64,000 bases of DNA from Tautonia marina (GTDB lineage Bacteria > Planctomycetota > Planctomycetia > Isosphaerales > Isosphaeraceae). The translations under genes were made by a program, and so were the position numbers. Location of the stretch: the NCBI RefSeq assembly GCF_009177065.1, contig NZ_WEZF01000005.1, positions 62,001-126,000 of the forward strand, in the 5' to 3' direction. The notes beneath the pieces were generated by a model, which did no database searches, was not told where the DNA came from, and saw only the letters and a list, made by a program, of their open reading frames with translations. Below, piece after piece: positions 47,784 to 56,871 of this stretch (positions are counted from its first letter, which is position 1; the number at the start of each line of letters is the position of its first letter).

Positions 47784-48173
47784 GTGGGGTTCCGTCCTTG
47801 CTGAGGTCGCTCGGAGCCCATCAATGAGTTGGGCGATCGGGACTGAGCATAGCCGGGATGGGGGATCGCGCCAATTCCAGGACAAGCGAGTTCAAAGGAG
47901 GCCGTGTCTCGCACCGGGCGGTTCGGGTCGGTCGGATGACGCGGTCGGAGGAGCAAAGCGGGCTTGAGGAAGGCCAAGGCCCCCTTGCCTCGGAAGGGCT
48001 GGGCGGAAATGATCGAAAGACCACATCATCGCGGAATTGAGGACAGGCAGAGAGGGGATCTCGGCACCCTCGATCTCGATGCCGTTCGGGATCGAGTCGG
48101 TGACGAGCTCGGACGCAGGGACGGGCCATCCCATGCCGAAGTCGAGCCAAGCGCAAGCGGAGGGCACGTCCCG
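47784..48173. other. Divergent intergenic region
   Basis: This 390-base gap separates the SIS operon from the FtsK-like gene and should contain both promoters. Open frames run through it from both flanks without good starts; nothing else was recognised. Confidence 0.4.
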
Positions 48174-51100
48174 ATGTCGGATCAGGTGAGGAACGCTCAG
48201 GACCCCGTCGACCGTCAGGTGGCCGCGCTTCAGGCACTGGCGCAGCGGGTCACCGAACGCACCACGGCCGAAACCAAGCTGGAACAGGACCACGCCCAGC
48301 GGACCGACGCCGCTCGTCGGGCGTTTGAACAGGCAAGCAAGGCGAACGACGCTCAATATCAACAGCAACGCACCGCCCTGGATCGCCGCGCGAAGGAAGT
48401 CCCCACCGCGGCCACCGCCTCGTTCGAAGCCTCGAAGGCCGAGGCCGATACCACCTTGCAGGCGGCAAAGACCCGGGCCGAGCAGCAGTATCGGGAGCGG
48501 ATCGAAACGATCAAGCAGGCCCAGGCCGACCAGCGTTGGGAGGTCGGCACGATTTGCGAGGCCGGTCTCAACGACGCGAAGGGGGAACTCGAACGGACCC
48601 AGAATCAACTGACCGAGGTCAACGGCCGCCTCAAAGCCATTCGCGTCGAGATTGACCAGCACCTGAAATCGTGTCGGCTCCAATCGGCCGCAAGAGGCGT
48701 GGAGGTCGAGCCCCAGGCGACCGCGAATTCGGTCGAACATCCCACGGCCGACGCCGCCAACCAGGCCCTCGACGAGGCGGAGCAGCGGTTCGACGACCTG
48801 CGTAATCTGACCCTTCCCGGCCTGTTTCGCGGCATTCGCCCGGCGGCCCTGGTGCTTGTCCCGTCAGTCCTGGGAGCAGGGGGGGGGTTCTTTCTCCAGC
48901 AGAGCTGGGTTGGCCCCGCAGCCGGTGGCGGAATTGGAGCCATCGTGGGGGTGATCCTGGCGACCTGGCTCTACGCAACGGCTCGGGTTCAGGTGCAACG
49001 GGCCCTGGGACCCTTACAGGAGGCGATCGGACGGGCTGCCGATCAGGTGGTTCGCTCTCGGAAGGAGGCGGTTGCCGCTCATGGGAGGCGGGAACAGGAT
49101 CTCCTGAGTACCCGAGATCGTGAGCAAGCCGCCGCCGACGCCCGCGCCAAGGCCGCCGCGGCCGAGGCGAAATCGCAGGCACAGACTGCGATCGCCCGGG
49201 CAGACGAGGCTCATCGGGCCGCGATCGCCAAGGCAACCGCAACGCGAGACGAGCTTCTCCGAAAGATCCAGGAGGAGGTCGAGCGGTTGACCCCCGAGAT
49301 CCAGAAGCATTTCGAGACCGAGCGCGACCGGCTTCGAGTCGAGTACGATCAAGCCACGGCCGCCGCTCGGCAGCGGACCGGAGCCGAGGCCACGACTCTG
49401 GCCGATCGCTGGCGGAAGGGCCTCGCCCAGGTGCAAGAGACTCTGGCTCTGGTCGATGCCGAGATCGCCACCCGATTCCCCTCGTTCGAAGCCGCGGCGA
49501 GGGAGGATGCCCCTGTCCCGAAAGAGGTTCCCCCGGCGCTCCGGTTTGGTCGGCTTCGCGTCGATCTGGACATGTTCCCGCAGGGGAGGCCCGCCGACCC
49601 GGCCTTGATGGAAGGGCTGCCGGACCATTTCGAGCCGCCGGCGATCGTCCGGAGCCCTGACGGATGCTCGTTTCTCCTGAAGGCCGATGCCGAGGGGCGA
49701 TCTGCGGCACTCGGGGCGATGCAGGCGGTGATGCTTCGGATCTTGACCGGCTTTCCGCCCGGCAAGGCACGGTTCACGATGATCGACCCGGTCGGGCTCG
49801 GTCAGACGTTTGCCGCGTTCATGCACCTGGCGGATGTGGACGAGCAACTCGTCACAAACCGCGTTTGGACCGAAACGCAGCACATCGAGCAACGCCTGCA
49901 AGACCTGACCGAACACATGGAGAACGTGATCCAGAAATATCTGCGCAACGAATATCACTCGATCACCGAATACAACGCCCGAGCCGGCGAGGTGGCCGAG
50001 CCGTTCCGGTTTCTGGTCGTGGCCGATTTCCCGGTTCGGTTCAACGAGGCGGCAGCACGACGGCTCCTGAGCATTGCACAAAGCGGCCCGAGATGTGGTG
50101 TTCATGTGATTGTTCTGGTGGATGTTCGTCAGGAGCTTCCCCAGGGGATTGATTTGAAAGACCTCGAACGGCACTGCGCGGTCTTGCATTGGCGGGAAGG
50201 ACGGGTGAGGTGGTCGGATCCGCTTCGGGGCGGGTTTCCCTTGAAGCTCGATGAACCGCCGCCACCCGACGTGTTCTCGGGGGTGGTTCGAGCCGTGGGG
50301 AAGCGGGCCGAAGGGGCAAGCCGGGTCGAGGTGCCGTTCGACTTTCTCGCACCGCCGCCGGAGGACTACTGGCGAGGCGATAGCGGGAAAGGGGTGGCGA
50401 TCCCGCTTGGTCGGGCCGGAGCAACGAAGATTCAGCAGCTCAAGCTGGGGTCGGGCACGGCGCAGCATGTGTTGATCGCTGGCAAGACGGGATCGGGAAA
50501 ATCAACGCTTCTCCATGCGATGATTACGAGCGCCGCGCTGACGTATGCCCCCGATCAGCTTGAACTGTACCTGATCGACTTCAAGAAAGGGGTGGAATTC
50601 AAGGCCTATGCAACGCACCACCTGCCCCATGCTCGGGTCATCGCGGTCGAAAGTGAGCGGGAGTTTGGGCTTTCGGTTTTGCTACGGCTCGACGCTGAAC
50701 TCGGATCGCGGGGGGATCTGTTCCGGGAGGCGGGCACGCAGGATGTCGCCGCCTTCCGGGTGGCTCGTCCTGACGTGCCGATGCCGCGCATCCTGCTGAT
50801 CGTCGATGAGTTTCAGGAGTTCTTTGTCGAGGACGACAAGATTGCCCAGGAGGCGGCGTTGCTGCTCGACCGGCTCGTCCGGCAGGGGCGAGCGTTCGGG
50901 ATCCATGTGCATCTCGGCTCGCAGACCCTCGCGGGGGCGTACACGCTGGCTCGGGCGACCATTGGGCAGATGGCGGTACGGATCGCGCTTCAGTGTAGTG
51001 AAGCGGACGCGAGCCTGATCCTCAGCGACGATAATACCGCGGCGCGGTTGCTTTCTCGCCCTGGAGAAGCCATTTACAATGACGCAAACGGCAGACTTGA

Positions 51101-52100
51101 AGGAAACAACATCTTTCAGGTGGTCTGGTTGCCTGACGAGCGGCGAGAGGAGTATCTTCGCCGGATCGCAAGCCTCGCTGATGAGCGCAACGTGCGGGTC
51201 CGAAAACCGATCGTCTTCGAAGGGAACATCGCCCCCGACCCGGCCAACAACGAACCGCTGGCCACCTTGCTTGAGGCAGAGGCATACCCCGACCCGCTTC
51301 CGAAAGCCTCGCTTGCCTGGCTCGGCGAGCCGGTGGCGATCAAGGCCCCCACGGCGATGCACTTCCGAAGGCTGGCCGGGGCGCACCTGCTGATCGTTGG
51401 CCAAAACGAGGAGGCAGCCCGAGGCCTGATGGCGATGACGATGATTAGCCTCGCCGCTCATCGGCCCGACGCTCGATTCGTCTTGCTCGACGGCACACCC
51501 GCGGACGATCCGAGGGCGGGTGATCTTCCCCGAATCGCACTAGCTTTGCCGAATGAAGCCCTCGCGAGTACCTGGGGTCAGGTGGAATCGAGCATTGCGG
51601 ATGTCGCCGCCGAGGTTGAGCGGAGGAGGGACGAGGGAATTACCGATGCCGCGCCCCTCTACCTGCTCATTCACGACTTGCAACGCTTCCGCCAGCTTCG
51701 TAAGAGTGAAGATGATTTCAGCTTTTCGACTCCCGACCCGAACGAGCCGGCCAAGCCCTCGGAGTTGCTCGGAACGATTCTTCGGGATGGTCCGATCCAC
51801 GGCGTTCATGTGATTATGTGGGTCGACACGCTCAATAACCTGAATCGAACATTCGACCGCGCGACACTCCGCGAGCTGGAACACCGGGTGTTGTTCCAGA
51901 TGTCCTCTGCCGATTCCTCCACGTTAATTGATTCACCGCTGGCCAATCGCCTTGGAATGCAACGGGCCTTGCTGGTGAGCGAGGAGGCAGGGCAGTTGGA
52001 AAAGTTCCGCCCCTATGGCCCGCCGTCGGAAGATTGGGTCAGAGAAGCGGTCGATCGCCTCGGCCGTCGATCGTCACGTCCGAGCGAAGGATCGGTTTGA
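48174..52100 (+). CDS. Large coiled-coil, membrane-anchored FtsK/SpoIIIE-type ATPase
   Basis: From ATG 48174 (GGAGGG 9 bases upstream) the product has 1308 residues. An Ala/Glu/Gln-rich coiled coil covers about 1-215, two membrane helices about 224-275, and a second coiled coil to about 440. A FtsK-type ATPase follows, with Walker A GKTGSGKS at 770-777, Walker B ILLIVDEFQEFF near 873-884 and a preceding YLIDFKKGVEFKAYATHHLP. A second ATPase-like domain (about 1060-1290) starts HLLIVGQNEEAARGLMAMTM and lacks the Walker lysine. This recalls T7SS EccC-like or HerA/FtsK pumps. DNA or protein may be the cargo; it is not classical FtsK because the gamma DNA-reading domain is missing. Confidence 0.88.
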   Translation: MSDQVRNAQDPVDRQVAALQALAQRVTERTTAETKLEQDHAQRTDAARRAFEQASKANDAQYQQQRTALDRRAKEVPTAATASFEASKAEADTTLQAAKTRAEQQYRERIETIKQAQADQRWEVGTICEAGLNDAKGELERTQNQLTEVNGRLKAIRVEIDQHLKSCRLQSAARGVEVEPQATANSVEHPTADAANQALDEAEQRFDDLRNLTLPGLFRGIRPAALVLVPSVLGAGGGFFLQQSWVGPAAGGGIGAIVGVILATWLYATARVQVQRALGPLQEAIGRAADQVVRSRKEAVAAHGRREQDLLSTRDREQAAADARAKAAAAEAKSQAQTAIARADEAHRAAIAKATATRDELLRKIQEEVERLTPEIQKHFETERDRLRVEYDQATAAARQRTGAEATTLADRWRKGLAQVQETLALVDAEIATRFPSFEAAAREDAPVPKEVPPALRFGRLRVDLDMFPQGRPADPALMEGLPDHFEPPAIVRSPDGCSFLLKADAEGRSAALGAMQAVMLRILTGFPPGKARFTMIDPVGLGQTFAAFMHLADVDEQLVTNRVWTETQHIEQRLQDLTEHMENVIQKYLRNEYHSITEYNARAGEVAEPFRFLVVADFPVRFNEAAARRLLSIAQSGPRCGVHVIVLVDVRQELPQGIDLKDLERHCAVLHWREGRVRWSDPLRGGFPLKLDEPPPPDVFSGVVRAVGKRAEGASRVEVPFDFLAPPPEDYWRGDSGKGVAIPLGRAGATKIQQLKLGSGTAQHVLIAGKTGSGKSTLLHAMITSAALTYAPDQLELYLIDFKKGVEFKAYATHHLPHARVIAVESEREFGLSVLLRLDAELGSRGDLFREAGTQDVAAFRVARPDVPMPRILLIVDEFQEFFVEDDKIAQEAALLLDRLVRQGRAFGIHVHLGSQTLAGAYTLARATIGQMAVRIALQCSEADASLILSDDNTAARLLSRPGEAIYNDANGRLEGNNIFQVVWLPDERREEYLRRIASLADERNVRVRKPIVFEGNIAPDPANNEPLATLLEAEAYPDPLPKASLAWLGEPVAIKAPTAMHFRRLAGAHLLIVGQNEEAARGLMAMTMISLAAHRPDARFVLLDGTPADDPRAGDLPRIALALPNEALASTWGQVESSIADVAAEVERRRDEGITDAAPLYLLIHDLQRFRQLRKSEDDFSFSTPDPNEPAKPSELLGTILRDGPIHGVHVIMWVDTLNNLNRTFDRATLRELEHRVLFQMSSADSSTLIDSPLANRLGMQRALLVSEEAGQLEKFRPYGPPSEDWVREAVDRLGRRSSRPSEGSV

Positions 52101-52107
52101 ACCAATC

Positions 52108-52833
52108 ATGATCGAGGAGTCTGATCGAGCCCGGCGACGCGCGGTGATGGCCCTGATATTGATCGTCCCGGCCCAGAGTCTGGGCGTGGCCGCGATGTTG
52201 CTCGCCTTGCCAGGCTCGATCGGTCTTGGAATCAACCTGATGAGCCGGGTCTGGATGGTCGCATTTCCAGTGGTGTGGACCTTGCGGGTCGAGCGACGCG
52301 CGATTCAGTTGAAGCGGCCGAGTCGGGCCGGAATGATCGCCGGGCTTGTGACGGGTGTGATGATGTTGGGAGTGATGCTCGGGGTCTACGGGCTCGTCTC
52401 CGATCAGATCGACCTGTCCCGCCTTCGAAGTCGGGCCAGGCTGACAGGATTTGACGATCCCGTCCAGTTTGCGGCCATGTTCGGCTTCATCATCCTGCTG
52501 AACTCGTTGTTGGAGGAATTCGTCTGGCGATGGTTCGTCTACCGGCAGGTGGAGCTCTTCCTTCCTGCTCGCATGGCACGGATGGCCCGGCAAGGGGGGG
52601 CGGTGGTGATCGCAGCAGTCGCGTTCACGATCCATCATGTGATCGCCCTGTCGGCCTGGGTTGACGGTGGGTTGGTTTTGCTCGGGAGTCTCGGGGTGTT
52701 TCTGGGAGCGGTGGTGTGGTCGGCCCTGTATGCCTACGACCGCACCCTCTGGCCGTGTTACGTCAGTCATCTTTTTGCAGATGTGGCGATTGTGATCATT
52801 GGCTACGACGTTCTGTTTCGCATGGCGATTTGA
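52108..52833 (+). CDS. CPBP-family intramembrane glutamic protease
   Basis: ATG 52108 starts a 241-residue multi-pass protein 7 bases after the stop of the FtsK-like gene. The CPBP (Abi) signature is complete: NSLLEEFVWRWFVYRQVELF carries EExxxR, AAVAFTIHHVIAL supplies the first histidine, and YVSHLFADVAIVIIG the second. Family members cleave or remodel membrane-anchored proteins, for example CAAX substrates. The short distance suggests co-transcription with the FtsK-like ATPase. A functional connection between the two is inference. The upstream in-frame extension to 52015 overlaps that gene and is not used. Confidence 0.88.
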   Translation: MIEESDRARRRAVMALILIVPAQSLGVAAMLLALPGSIGLGINLMSRVWMVAFPVVWTLRVERRAIQLKRPSRAGMIAGLVTGVMMLGVMLGVYGLVSDQIDLSRLRSRARLTGFDDPVQFAAMFGFIILLNSLLEEFVWRWFVYRQVELFLPARMARMARQGGAVVIAAVAFTIHHVIALSAWVDGGLVLLGSLGVFLGAVVWSALYAYDRTLWPCYVSHLFADVAIVIIGYDVLFRMAI

Positions 52834-53057: not shown

Positions 53058-53318
53058 GTGACGGACCCGGAACTATTCCAATCGGTGACCGAAGCGATTC
53101 GCGCTTGCAGCCCAGCCGCCAGGGAAATCGTGATCGAGTCGAACTCACGATTGTTTGAGGATCTGTCGCTCGACTCGCTCGATCTGGTGGCTGTCTTGAT
53201 GCAACTTCAGGATGCCCATGAAATTGAGCTTGATCTCGACGCAGTCCCCGATTTCCGACATGTTTCTGACTTGATGGCCGAACTGGGGCGTCAGCTTCGC
53301 TCGAAGGCCGCTGCCTGA
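53058..53318 (+). CDS. Acyl carrier protein
   Basis: The 86-residue protein starts at GTG 53058, with GGGAGAGAG upstream. It has the ACP layout: RLFEDLSLDSLDLVAVLMQL includes the phosphopantetheine serine S40 in DSLD, followed by the helix II-III region EIELDLDAVPDFRHVSDLMA. It lacks the strongly acidic helix II of the housekeeping AcpP (normally EELDEFDTEI), so it is a specialised ACP. It lies 133 bases upstream of the E1/lipoyl/KAS III fusion, and the pair reads as one operon. Its probable task is to carry the extender or the product of the fusion's ketosynthase. Confidence 0.92.
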   Translation: MTDPELFQSVTEAIRACSPAAREIVIESNSRLFEDLSLDSLDLVAVLMQLQDAHEIELDLDAVPDFRHVSDLMAELGRQLRSKAAA

Positions 53319-53369: not shown

Positions 53370-53451
53370 TCCTCAAGGGCCGTGCAAGAGTCCGCGACGG
53401 CCCCGGAGACTTGAACGGCCTGCCTTGACAGATTCGACCCAGGGACGGGAT

Positions 53452-56400
53452 ATGAATCAGCAGGATCAGAGCCGGGGGGTTCCCCCCGTCGTCCATCGTC
53501 GTTTCACTCAACGCATTCCCGCGATTTCCGGAACCAACTGGGTTTCCGTCTACCGGGCGATGGTCACGGCCCGTCGAGTCGATGAGGCCGAGACCGACCT
53601 GACGGCTCGGGGTCTGGCCTTCTTTTCCTGCCCGTGTACTGGCCATGAAAGTCTGGCGGTTCTGGCACCTCTGCTGACCTCTGATGATTATTTGCATCTG
53701 CACTATCGCGATAAAGCACTGATTCTCGGTCGAGGGGTTCCTGCCTCGACCTTGCTGCATAACGTCATCGCCAGCGGGGCATCCCCTTCAGCGGGCCGGC
53801 AGATGACACCGTTTCTGGGTGATCCGGGCCTGCATTTGCTCTGCCAGAATGTCCCGGTCGGAAACCATGCCCTGCAATCCGTTGGCGTCGCCGCAGCGGT
53901 CAAGGACCGCGCCGGCCGGCCGATTGTCGTATGTTCGATGGGGGACGGCGCCTCTCAGCAAGGAGAGGTTCTGGAGGCGATCGCCGAGGCTGTTCGTCGA
54001 TCGTTACCGGTGATGTTCCTGATTGAAGACAACGGGCTTTCCATCTCGACCCGAACCGAGGGCCGGACCTTTTTCTCTCTGCCAGATTGCTATGCCGATC
54101 CCGAGGTCTTCTACGGTTTGCCAATCCATCGGATCAACGGACGAGATCCGGTGGAACTGTCCATGAAACTCGATCCGATCGTCGAGACGATGAGGTCCGA
54201 TGGCCTTCCTACCCTCGCGGTCATCTCGCTCGATCGGCTCTCCAGTCATACGAACGCGGACGATGACCGCGTCTACCGCACTGAGGACGAGAGAGACCGA
54301 GCAAAACGACTTGGCGATCCCCTGGCAATCCTGCGTCAACGGATGATTGAGTCGGACGTGCCGCCTGACGTTCTCGATCGGATCGACGCGGAGGTGGATC
54401 GTGAGATCCGAGACGCCGTTGACGAGGCCCTGCAAGCCGCAGACCCAACGCCGTCGTTTGTCGCCAAGGCCGAGTTGCCTCCGAGGTTGACTGATCCCGC
54501 CTCCGAGTACCGGGGTGGGGCGGATGGACCGCGTCTGACGATGATCGAGGCGATGCGGGAGGTCCTCCGTCACCGCCTTGAAACCGATCCACGCGTCACG
54601 CTCTGCGGCCAGGACATCGAAGATCCCAAGGGAGACGTGTTCGGGGTCACGCGAGGCTTGAGCACGGCCTTCCCGGGTCGGGTGATCAATGCGGCGCTGG
54701 CCGAATCGACCATTGTTGGGAACGCGATTGGTCGGGCGATGGTGGGCGAACGCCCGGTGGCCTTTCTGCAATTCGCAGACTTCTTGCCGGTGGCCTTCAA
54801 CCAGATTCACTCGGAACTCGGTAGCCTTTGGTGGCGAAGCGCGGGCACCTTTTCATGCCCTGTGATTCTGATGGTTGCCTGCGGTGGGTATCGGCCTGGC
54901 CTCGGGCCGTTTCATGCTCAGACAATGGAGGCGTTGGCCGCACACGTGCCGGGTGTGGACGTGGTCATGCCTTCGAGCGCAGGGGATGCCGCGGGTCTAC
55001 TGAATGCAGCCTTTGAATCCGATCGACCGACCATCGTGTTCTATCCGAAGATCGGTCTGAACGACCGCGATCGGACCACTTCGGCCGATGTCACGGCGCA
55101 ACGGGTTCCGCTGGGTCGAGCTCGGTTCTGTCGAACCGGGGATGCCTTGACGTTGGTGACCTGGGGAGCAACCGTCCCACTTGCAGAAAAAGTTGCTGAT
55201 ACATTTCTGGATCAAACCGGGTTCAGCAGTGATGTGATCGACCTTCGGTCTCTCTCTCCCTGGGACCGCGACGCCGTGCGAGCATCGGCCCGACGTACGA
55301 GGCGCGTGATCGTGATCCACGAGGATAATCAGACCTGCGGGTTTGGTGCCGAAGTGGTCGCCGATGTGGCCGAGCATGCCGGGACAGCAGTTCAATTCAA
55401 ACGAGTCACACGACCAGACACCTACATTCCTTGCAATTTCTCGGCCCAGCTTGACGTTCTTCCCTCGTATCGTCGCACTCTGGAAGCAGCGGCCGAGGTA
55501 CTCGGCTTGGAACTCTGTTGGGAATCGGGTGAGACGCGTAGCAATACGACGGTGATCGAAGCTCGGGGGCCGAGCCCGGCGGATGAGGCGATCACCGTCC
55601 TGTCATGGAAGGTGAAGAACGGCGACGTTGTTTCCAGTGGGACGGTGATCGCGGAACTGGTTGCGGACAAGGCGGTGTTCGACTTCGTCGCTCCGAGTCG
55701 TGGCCGGATTCTCAAGCTGCATGCCTCGGAAGGTGAGCGCCTGCGGGTTGGGGCACCATTGCTCGAACTGGAACCCCTGGATCGGCAGACTCAGGCAGCC
55801 ACCCGCCGATTGACTCGTGAAGAACACGGGCGCCCGATTCTTCGACAGTCGCGACAACCATCTCCAAAGCGAACCCGCGAAAAGCATTCTGACACATCTC
55901 TTCGTGTTGTTCTTCCCACGGTCGAGGTTGGCTCTCGGATCGTAACGAATGAGGAATTGCTGGAGCGGTTTCCTGGTCGATCGACCGACGACATTCAGAA
56001 ACGGACGGGGATCTCCTCGCGGCATCGGCTCGCGGAGGGGGAAACGGTTCTCACGCTCGCGGTCTCAGCCGCGCAACGCGCACTTGACTCGGCGGGAATC
56101 TCGGCAAGCAATCTTGACCTGCTGATTTGTTGTACGGGCACACCCGGCGTGATGACTCCGTCTCTGGCGTGCCGGGTGCTTCACGGCCTCGGAGCATCTT
56201 CGGGAACGAGTCCCGAGCTGCCCGCCTTTGACCTGTCCGCGGCCTGCTCAGGGTATCTCTATGGGTTAGCCACCGCGTACGATTTCACGCGATCGCATCC
56301 TGATGGCCGCGTGCTACTGGTTACTGCCGAAGCACTTTCTCCCCTGGCTGACGAGAATGATTTTGACACGTCGATTCTTTTTGGAGACGCTGCAACCGCG

Positions 56401-56871
56401 ACCCTGATCGGTGGTCCGGAGGCTAAGTTGCCGGAAGGCTCGATCCTCGGCAGACTGCATCGGCCAGTGCTTTCCGCTCGGGGAGAACCGGGAACCATTC
56501 TTCGGGTACCCTCTTTGGGAAATGGTCATATCGCGATGGATGGGCTCAAGGTGTATGCGGAAGCGGTGCGCAGGATGATCACGCTCCTTGAAGCCTGTTG
56601 TGCGCGAGAGGGATTGACCGTGGGAGACCTCGACCTGCTGGTCCCCCATCAGGCGAATGCCAGAATCATCCAGGACATTCGCATGCGATTGAAGCTCCCG
56701 ACGGATCGAGTGCTCATCGAATTGGGAACCTTCGGAAATACGTCGTCTTCAAGCATTCCGCTGGCCATCGCAACCGCACAGGACCGAGCGAGAGCCGCCC
56801 GGACCATCGGTCTGACGGCGTTCGGAGGGGGATTTACCTTCGGCGCGGCCCTGATCCGATCAGGTGAATAA
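53452..56871 (+). CDS. 2-oxoacid dehydrogenase E1alpha-E1beta-lipoyl-KAS III fusion
   Basis: The 1139-residue protein starts at ATG 53452 with GGGACGGGA upstream. Residues about 22-331 are an E1 alpha subunit (HLHYRDKALILGRG; TPP motif GDGASQQGEV at 164-173, ending at N194). Residues about 362-681 are E1 beta (AESTIVGNAIGRAM with E418, GPFHAQTMEALAAHVPG with H488). Residues about 706-776 form a lipoyl domain (SWKVKNGDVVSSGTVIAELV) with lysine K740 in VADKAVFDF. After a basic 40-residue linker, residues about 818-1139 are KAS III with C932 (AACSGY), H1066 (VPHQANAR) and N1096 (GTFGNTSSSS). No E2 core and no E3-binding domain are seen. The E1 part resembles the branched-chain type. A dedicated ACP precedes it. 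Confidence 0.92.
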   Translation: MNQQDQSRGVPPVVHRRFTQRIPAISGTNWVSVYRAMVTARRVDEAETDLTARGLAFFSCPCTGHESLAVLAPLLTSDDYLHLHYRDKALILGRGVPASTLLHNVIASGASPSAGRQMTPFLGDPGLHLLCQNVPVGNHALQSVGVAAAVKDRAGRPIVVCSMGDGASQQGEVLEAIAEAVRRSLPVMFLIEDNGLSISTRTEGRTFFSLPDCYADPEVFYGLPIHRINGRDPVELSMKLDPIVETMRSDGLPTLAVISLDRLSSHTNADDDRVYRTEDERDRAKRLGDPLAILRQRMIESDVPPDVLDRIDAEVDREIRDAVDEALQAADPTPSFVAKAELPPRLTDPASEYRGGADGPRLTMIEAMREVLRHRLETDPRVTLCGQDIEDPKGDVFGVTRGLSTAFPGRVINAALAESTIVGNAIGRAMVGERPVAFLQFADFLPVAFNQIHSELGSLWWRSAGTFSCPVILMVACGGYRPGLGPFHAQTMEALAAHVPGVDVVMPSSAGDAAGLLNAAFESDRPTIVFYPKIGLNDRDRTTSADVTAQRVPLGRARFCRTGDALTLVTWGATVPLAEKVADTFLDQTGFSSDVIDLRSLSPWDRDAVRASARRTRRVIVIHEDNQTCGFGAEVVADVAEHAGTAVQFKRVTRPDTYIPCNFSAQLDVLPSYRRTLEAAAEVLGLELCWESGETRSNTTVIEARGPSPADEAITVLSWKVKNGDVVSSGTVIAELVADKAVFDFVAPSRGRILKLHASEGERLRVGAPLLELEPLDRQTQAATRRLTREEHGRPILRQSRQPSPKRTREKHSDTSLRVVLPTVEVGSRIVTNEELLERFPGRSTDDIQKRTGISSRHRLAEGETVLTLAVSAAQRALDSAGISASNLDLLICCTGTPGVMTPSLACRVLHGLGASSGTSPELPAFDLSAACSGYLYGLATAYDFTRSHPDGRVLLVTAEALSPLADENDFDTSILFGDAATATLIGGPEAKLPEGSILGRLHRPVLSARGEPGTILRVPSLGNGHIAMDGLKVYAEAVRRMITLLEACCAREGLTVGDLDLLVPHQANARIIQDIRMRLKLPTDRVLIELGTFGNTSSSSIPLAIATAQDRARAARTIGLTAFGGGFTFGAALIRSGE

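Follow-up and report, generated by a model that had tools for sequence, protein, structure and literature searches.

A 64,000-nucleotide stretch of DNA from Tautonia marina (the window) carries, at 53452-56871 on the + strand, one open frame of 1139 aa with no internal stops, which joins both halves of a 2-oxoacid dehydrogenase E1 (E1-alpha and E1-beta), a lipoyl domain and a beta-ketoacyl-acyl carrier protein synthase III (KAS III) in a single chain. A first-pass annotation of the window had proposed this frame and its four parts, and open reading frame (ORF), Pfam and NCBIfam analyses bore it out. On balance, we favour the explanation that the protein is a chain starter working without coenzyme A (CoA), in which an acyl group would be handed from the lipoyl group to the ketosynthase and then condensed with malonyl-acyl carrier protein (ACP). 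In the proposed mechanism, the E1 half would decarboxylate a 2-oxoacid on thiamine pyrophosphate (TPP) and reductively acylate the lipoyl group on K740; the lipoyl arm would swing to the KAS III part, where the acyl group would pass to C932 rather than to CoA; and the acyl-C932 would condense with malonyl-ACP (in Tautonia, probably with the ACP encoded upstream) to give a 3-oxoacyl-ACP, which would start a fatty-acid or polyketide chain. The dihydrolipoyl group would be re-oxidized by the ordinary E3 of the cell, and the acyl group would probably be larger than acetyl, most likely branched-chain.

Analysis of the domains showed that the Pfam models E1_dh, Transket_pyr and Transketolase_C match residues 34-334, 362-534 and 555-666 respectively, followed by Biotin_lipoyl (715-773), ACP_syn_III (926-988) and ACP_syn_III_C (1050-1136), and the NCBIfam model NF006829 (beta-ketoacyl-ACP synthase 3) scored residues 826-1136 at 259.7 bits against a cut-off of 249. 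Neither an E2 core (2-oxoacid_dh) nor an E1/E3-binding domain was found in the chain among the nine Pfam families matched at an E-value of 0.001, as the first-pass annotation had held. The residues that it had named were also where it had placed them: GDG164-166, N194, E418 and H488 of the E1 half, and K740, C932, H1066 and N1096 further on, were unchanged across 21/21 aligned fusions, the window included, as were the K740-A741 pair and H266, which we regard as another of the E1 catalytic histidines. The E1 half thus has the TPP motif with the catalytic residues of an E1, the lipoyl domain has an acceptor lysine predicted to be lipoylated, and the C-terminal part has the thiolase fold with the Cys-His-Asn of a KAS III. 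Judged by these features, conversion of a 2-oxoacid into an acyl-lipoyl group is a well-supported prediction. An in-frame TTG at 53425 is an alternative start, which would add nine residues.

A search for related loci gave 21 loci, of which 15 read from E1 to KAS III in one frame (L041 among them lacks ~15 residues at a contig start), six were cut by a contig end and none was split. One copy lies on an 8.67-Mb contig of a six-contig genome (G040), and another (L028) is in the isolate Tautonia sociabilis GM2012. An assembly error, which the first-pass annotation had named as a possible fault, or a chance frame was ruled out by the unsplit fusions in many loci, the long contig and the isolate included. 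With the window, L008, L010, L049-L051, L102, L104 and L113, the 15 loci make up 24 distinct fusions. Between the window and L008, dN/dS (the ratio of non-synonymous to synonymous substitution rates) was ~0.15 for E1-alpha, ~0.04 for E1-beta, ~0.17 for the lipoyl domain, ~0.29 for the linker that follows it and ~0.06 for KAS III, at dS values of 0.8-1.6, which are near saturation. Comparison of four Tautonia sequences, with dS often near or at saturation, gave dN well below dS in the E1, lipoyl and KAS III parts, the linker being the loosest. All domains of the fusion look to be under constraint.

Next, we mapped the KAS III residues by alignment with E. coli FabH and compared 26 fused KAS III with 29 other KAS III (19 from 17 fusion-bearing genomes and ten from other Planctomycetota); two unfused relatives, L078 and L079 (the split KAS III), were set aside from the counts. 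In FabH, the adenine of CoA is sandwiched between Trp32 and Arg151, as described in PMC4606726. Trp32 was present in 0/26 fused KAS III compared with 29/29 of the others, and Arg151 in 0/26 compared with 24/29, while Cys112, His244, Asn274 and Arg249 were kept in 26/26. Position 257 was lysine or arginine in 24/26 of the fused proteins; we assume that FabH residues 249, 257 and 214 are on the ACP side, with Lys214 part of the ACP/CoA surface. The gate at FabH position 87 was threonine or serine in 26/26 fused KAS III compared with phenylalanine in 17/29 of the others, and PMC3734052 associates phenylalanine at this position with a preference for acetyl and threonine with long chains. By its residues, the fused KAS III looks like an enzyme that meets ACP and accepts, from some donor that is not CoA, a group bigger than acetyl.

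A phylogenetic tree of E1 (58 rows, quick method, midpoint root; long-branch warnings were raised for it and for the KAS III tree) placed the 24 fused E1s in one clade (SH-aLRT 100), which adjoins (support 98) seven proteins of family f50 from the same phylum, Planctomycetota (L053-L059). Three of the seven (L053, L055 and L058) were scanned with Pfam, and each has E1-alpha, E1-beta, a lipoyl domain and an E2 core in one chain; the DHR motif of E2 was seen in 5/7. Because the fused E1 clade adjoins these one-chain E1-lipoyl-E2 proteins, KAS III occupies the position of the E2 acyltransferase core, whose usual task is to unload the acyl group from the lipoyl arm. The usual form of the E2 motif is DHRxxDG; in L053 and L055-L058 it reads DHRPFNG, and the lipoyl lysine is within ANKG. 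Direct transfer from the lipoyl group to C932 is supported, on sequence grounds, by this domain replacement together with the loss of the adenine clamp. For E2o, transfer is reported to rely on an oxyanion stabilized by an aspartate and a histidine, not on acid-base catalysis (PMC5986005), and by analogy a ketosynthase cysteine with an oxyanion hole could carry out an E2-like transfer. The direct hand-over suggested by the first-pass annotation thus fits the residues, the place of the E2 core, the loss of the clamp and an adjacent ACP gene, and the transfer itself is what we infer.

That ACP gene, overlooked in the first-pass annotation, ends 133 bp before the ATG of the fusion and scored 27.2 bits with Pfam PP-binding against a cut-off of 20.8. 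It was found by tblastn with the ACP from beside a split KAS III; a reading of the fusion as an orphan gene, based on the longest non-overlapping ORFs, was wrong, the ACP having been hidden by an antisense ORF. An ACP gene is at the same place in 4/4 Tautonia loci (the window, L028, L080 and L081) and also beside 2/2 split KAS III. Other contexts were seen elsewhere. In another family, f67, 3/4 genomes have a FabF-type ketosynthase, its cysteine in place, close to the fusion: in G286 and G400 it adjoins the fusion on the opposite strand, and in G386 it is 3.7 kb upstream. The gene after the second of two fusions in G436 encodes AMP-binding and PP-binding domains. A profile of the six ACPs beside fused or split genes plus E. 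coli AcpP gave no further ACP in the remaining loci covered; because the PP-binding domain of L138 escapes this profile too, distant carriers elsewhere may have gone unseen. The three kinds of context suggest that the fused KAS III is tied to ACP-borne chain building, and the condensation step is supported by the Cys-His-Asn triad along with the ACP and ketosynthase neighbours.

In a 58-row tree of KAS III (the 26 fused, the two split and the 29 other KAS III, and E. coli FabH), the fused and split proteins came together in a single clade (100/100) whose stem is long (1.37). L078 and L079, from genomes G010 and G009 of the family of the window, were nested in the fused clade beside Tautonia (91/87 and 93/88); no starred branch alone forces them inside the fused set, and 0/200 bootstrap trees set all of the fused KAS III alone on one side. 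No close E1 was found in either genome, the best match having 29-37% identity. The split state, with loss of E1, looks derived in G009 and G010, since both proteins fall inside the fused clade, and the common ACP neighbour agrees with this. Splitting in related genomes, which the first-pass annotation had thought fatal to its proposal, does occur in that a KAS III stands without E1, and its nested position makes it appear secondary.

Several observations weigh against the CoA-free starter. The split KAS III also have no clamp (alanine and phenylalanine at the clamp positions) and keep their ACP neighbour with neither E1 nor lipoyl arm; therefore clamp loss alone proves no lipoyl donor, and the main counter-argument is that this KAS III clade can use another donor, perhaps ACP or the lipoyl arm of another protein. 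Tautonia's own housekeeping KAS III has glutamine at position 151 (3/3 rows), and five of the 26 fused proteins have a tryptophan four positions ahead of the Trp32 column, which might stand in for it; both facts lower our confidence slightly. Lys214 of FabH is kept in just 2/26. Lipoyl-lysine makes a shorter arm than phosphopantetheine does, so the lipoyl domain must dock close to KAS III. Apart from those of Tautonia and f67 and one of the G436 copies, the loci, which are short, showed neither an ACP nor a ketosynthase nearby. An E2 core is encoded elsewhere in 20/21 host genomes, so acyl-CoA can be made. Finally, Tautonia probably has mainly straight-chain fatty acids; in the literature searched we found no report of them, nor any mention in the part of PMC7716859 consulted.

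Of the other explanations, the one that survives best dispenses with condensation. The KAS III part would do no more than transfer, taking the acyl group off the lipoyl arm onto C932 and on to the adjacent ACP (or an amine or an alcohol), as KAS III-type loading enzymes do. We consider this unlikely. The ACP gene adjoining the fusion in Tautonia suits it, as does the dnacin pathway, for which PMC7570522 suggests that the KAS III-like DinQ attaches a glyceryl group to the DinT ACP and that DinS/DinU, a two-component transketolase, delivers its unit to DinT. It sits poorly with a condensing triad that is complete in 26/26 and with an elongating ketosynthase near the gene in three genomes, which suits a 3-oxoacyl product.

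A second alternative, which we regard as rather less probable, is channelling through CoA, with a separate E2 making acyl-CoA for the KAS III part and the fusion merely co-locating the steps of Bkd and FabH. The classical Bkd-FabH route is established (PMC6461809), R36 is kept in 22/26 fused KAS III, and the separate E2 cores and the displaced tryptophan are in its favour. Both adenine-clamp positions, however, are altered in every fused protein whereas other KAS III largely keep them, and an E2 core is absent not only from the chain but also from all scanned neighbours of the fusion. The least probable of the three is the mechanism set out at the beginning with pyruvate as substrate, giving an acetyl starter for straight chains and sparing acetyl-CoA: the best NCBIfam models for the E1-alpha part are those of pyruvate dehydrogenase (PDH) E1 alpha (152 of 411 bits, far under the cut-off), PDH E1 alpha also ranks above human branched-chain E1 alpha in the Protein Data Bank (PDB) matches and the lipids of the genus are probably straight-chain, but Thermus branched-chain E1 heads that E1-alpha ranking, the best matches of E1-beta (2bp7_B, 1qs0_B and 1um9_B) are Pseudomonas and Thermus branched-chain E1, position 87 is never phenylalanine, and ordinary KAS III is present in 21/21 host genomes. 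For the CoA-free starter, a branched-chain substrate is thus weakly favoured; the 'branched or aromatic' 2-oxoacid of the first-pass annotation is at most hinted at by the threonine or serine at position 87 and the branched-chain E1-beta matches.

Examination of the host cell complement revealed a separate KAS III in 21/21 genomes (in G435 as a 255-residue frame), and the fusion is therefore an extra starter enzyme. E3 was above the cut-off in 19/21 and lipA was matched in 19/21, above the cut-off in 16; several of these genomes are bins, in which absences mean little.

The AlphaFold2 model of the fusion had a mean pLDDT (predicted local distance difference test) of 82.5 and a pTM (predicted template modelling score) of 0.67, and matched FabH (E 8.1e-28) and Thermus branched-chain E1 beta (6.9e-26), with a Z of ~42 for the KAS III and E1-beta folds alike. 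The Foldseek and VIA lists were filled by E1-beta and KAS III and are silent on domain docking. Values of pLDDT below 50 at residues 779-788 and 801-814 suggest that the linker after the lipoyl domain is mobile. Within it (residues 779-822), E790 is invariant and P795 nearly so, and a motif like REExGxPxL is seen in many members; maybe this is a docking motif for E1, KAS III or E3. E1 is an alpha2-beta2 assembly and KAS III a dimer, and two fused chains would satisfy both.

The fusion resembles a branched-chain 2-oxoacid dehydrogenase complex in its E1 folds and catalytic residues and in its lipoyl domain with an acceptor lysine, but it joins alpha to beta and lacks the E2 core as well as the E3-binding domain. 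With the f50 proteins it shares the order of the first three domains and a neighbouring E1 clade, although it ends in KAS III and they end in an E2 core. The fold, the Cys-His-Asn triad and Arg249, presumably the ACP-docking residue, are those of FabH/KAS III; unlike FabH, the fusion has no W32/R151 clamp (26/26), has a small residue at position 87 and carries its own acyl supply. In the textbook view, acyl-CoA or acyl-ACP provides the start of fatty-acid and polyketide chains. In the Bkd-FabH route to branched fatty acids, a 2-oxoacid likewise becomes an acyl starter for condensation with malonyl-ACP, whereas separate proteins work there through free acyl-CoA from E2 (PMC6461809).

The nearest published mechanism known to us is the lipoyl-to-ACP transfer of naphthyridinomycin and quinocarcin biosynthesis, where a pair of TPP enzymes (NapB/NapD and QncN/QncL; Peng 2012) reportedly loads a lipoyl group and then ACP, not CoA. 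This platform, which we liken to the fusion by description and not by sequence, differs in its ketose substrate, in having no KAS III in the chain and in feeding a peptide assembly line. NapB/NapD are named together with DinS/DinU in PMC7570522. The first-pass annotation did not recall the order E1-alpha, E1-beta, lipoyl, KAS III being described, and we likewise found no description of it or of its mechanism in open-licence papers; the parts are known, and the order is new as far as that literature shows. If true, the proposal would give a CoA-free starter route with lipoic acid as an acyl donor and carrier in lipid or polyketide synthesis. A single purified protein plus an ACP would then suffice to test direct lipoyl-to-ketosynthase transfer, and the fusion would be a compact engineering part for branched starter units.

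The 24 single-frame fusions come from records titled Planctomycetota, Actinomycetota, Kiritimatiellota, or proteobacterial or myxococcal bins. Titles of fusion-bearing records include Tautonia, Phycisphaerae, Kiritimatiellales, Actinomycetota and Thermoleophilia, as well as a Hyphomicrobiales bin, a Deltaproteobacteria bin and an Acidobacteria bin (the fusion in the last being incomplete); bin labels are no proof of taxonomy. We lean, if slightly, towards a class of starter enzymes spread over records from four or more phyla, a ketosynthase having taken the place of E2, so that the acyl group would pass from TPP to lipoyl to cysteine to ACP, never as free acyl-CoA. The full fusion was found in 4/45 genomes of the family of the window, all four of the genus Tautonia, in 4/296 genomes of the phylum of G441, and in at least 5/392 genomes of the phylum sample (G000, G155, G286, G386 and G400), a lower bound since two candidates were scored per genome (L052 was read whole). 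G436 carries two differing fused genes (L030 and L113/L138), with open frames of 1176 and 1166 aa. L044, from a record titled Bifidobacterium breve, is very near the fusions of actinobacterial bins L033, L041 and L042, and that record is probably a mislabelled bin.

Table 1. Coordinates of the fused gene, its parts and the adjacent ACP gene in the window
Feature	Position	Strand	Evidence
Fused gene E1alpha-E1beta-lipoyl-KAS III	53452..56871	+	ORF, Pfam, NCBIfam
E1-alpha, residues 34-334, TPP motif GDG164-N194, H266	53551..54453	+	Pfam PF00676, 114 bits
E1-beta, residues 362-666, E418 and H488	54535..55449	+	Pfam PF02779, PF02780
Lipoyl domain, residues 715-773, acceptor K740 (55669-55671)	55594..55770	+	Pfam PF00364, 46.1 bits
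Flexible linker, residues 779-822	55786..55917	+	Low pLDDT, alignment
KAS III, residues 826-1136, C932/H1066/N1096, without CoA clamp residues	55927..56859	+	NCBIfam NF006829
ACP gene, 86 aa, GTG start, LDSLDL phosphopantetheine site	53058..53318	+	ORF, Pfam PP-binding

Among the neighbouring genes, the split loci (L079:1925-4469 and L078:8287-10750) have the order ACP, KAS III, lipid A-type acyltransferase, and the cluster possibly serves an acylated lipid; the closest relatives of the acyltransferase in Tautonia genomes sit elsewhere (44-45%). In L135, the fused gene and a FabF-type ketosynthase flank a frame of 1190 aa (L135:4051-7623) that has DUF6537 and matches POR weakly, and we take it to be an indolepyruvate oxidoreductase-like protein. 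Seven frames scanned in L134 gave no Pfam match, and the ketosynthase gene runs antisense to one or more of these frames. Luciferase-like monooxygenases, a RecX-like protein, a phosphodiester glycosidase and a polysaccharide deacetylase recur in the Actinomycetota-type loci and look unrelated to the fusion. No link to the fusion was found among the scanned neighbours in L030, L032, L034 and L037, which comprise DUF1501 and Sel1-repeat proteins, an ABC transporter and a peptidase, penicillin-binding and cell-shape proteins, RNase E/G and an aminotransferase. In the window itself, a 1378-aa ORF at 47964-52100 resembles an FtsK/HerA-type ATPase by eye, and the next ORF, at 52015-52833, a CAAX-type membrane protease, likewise by eye.

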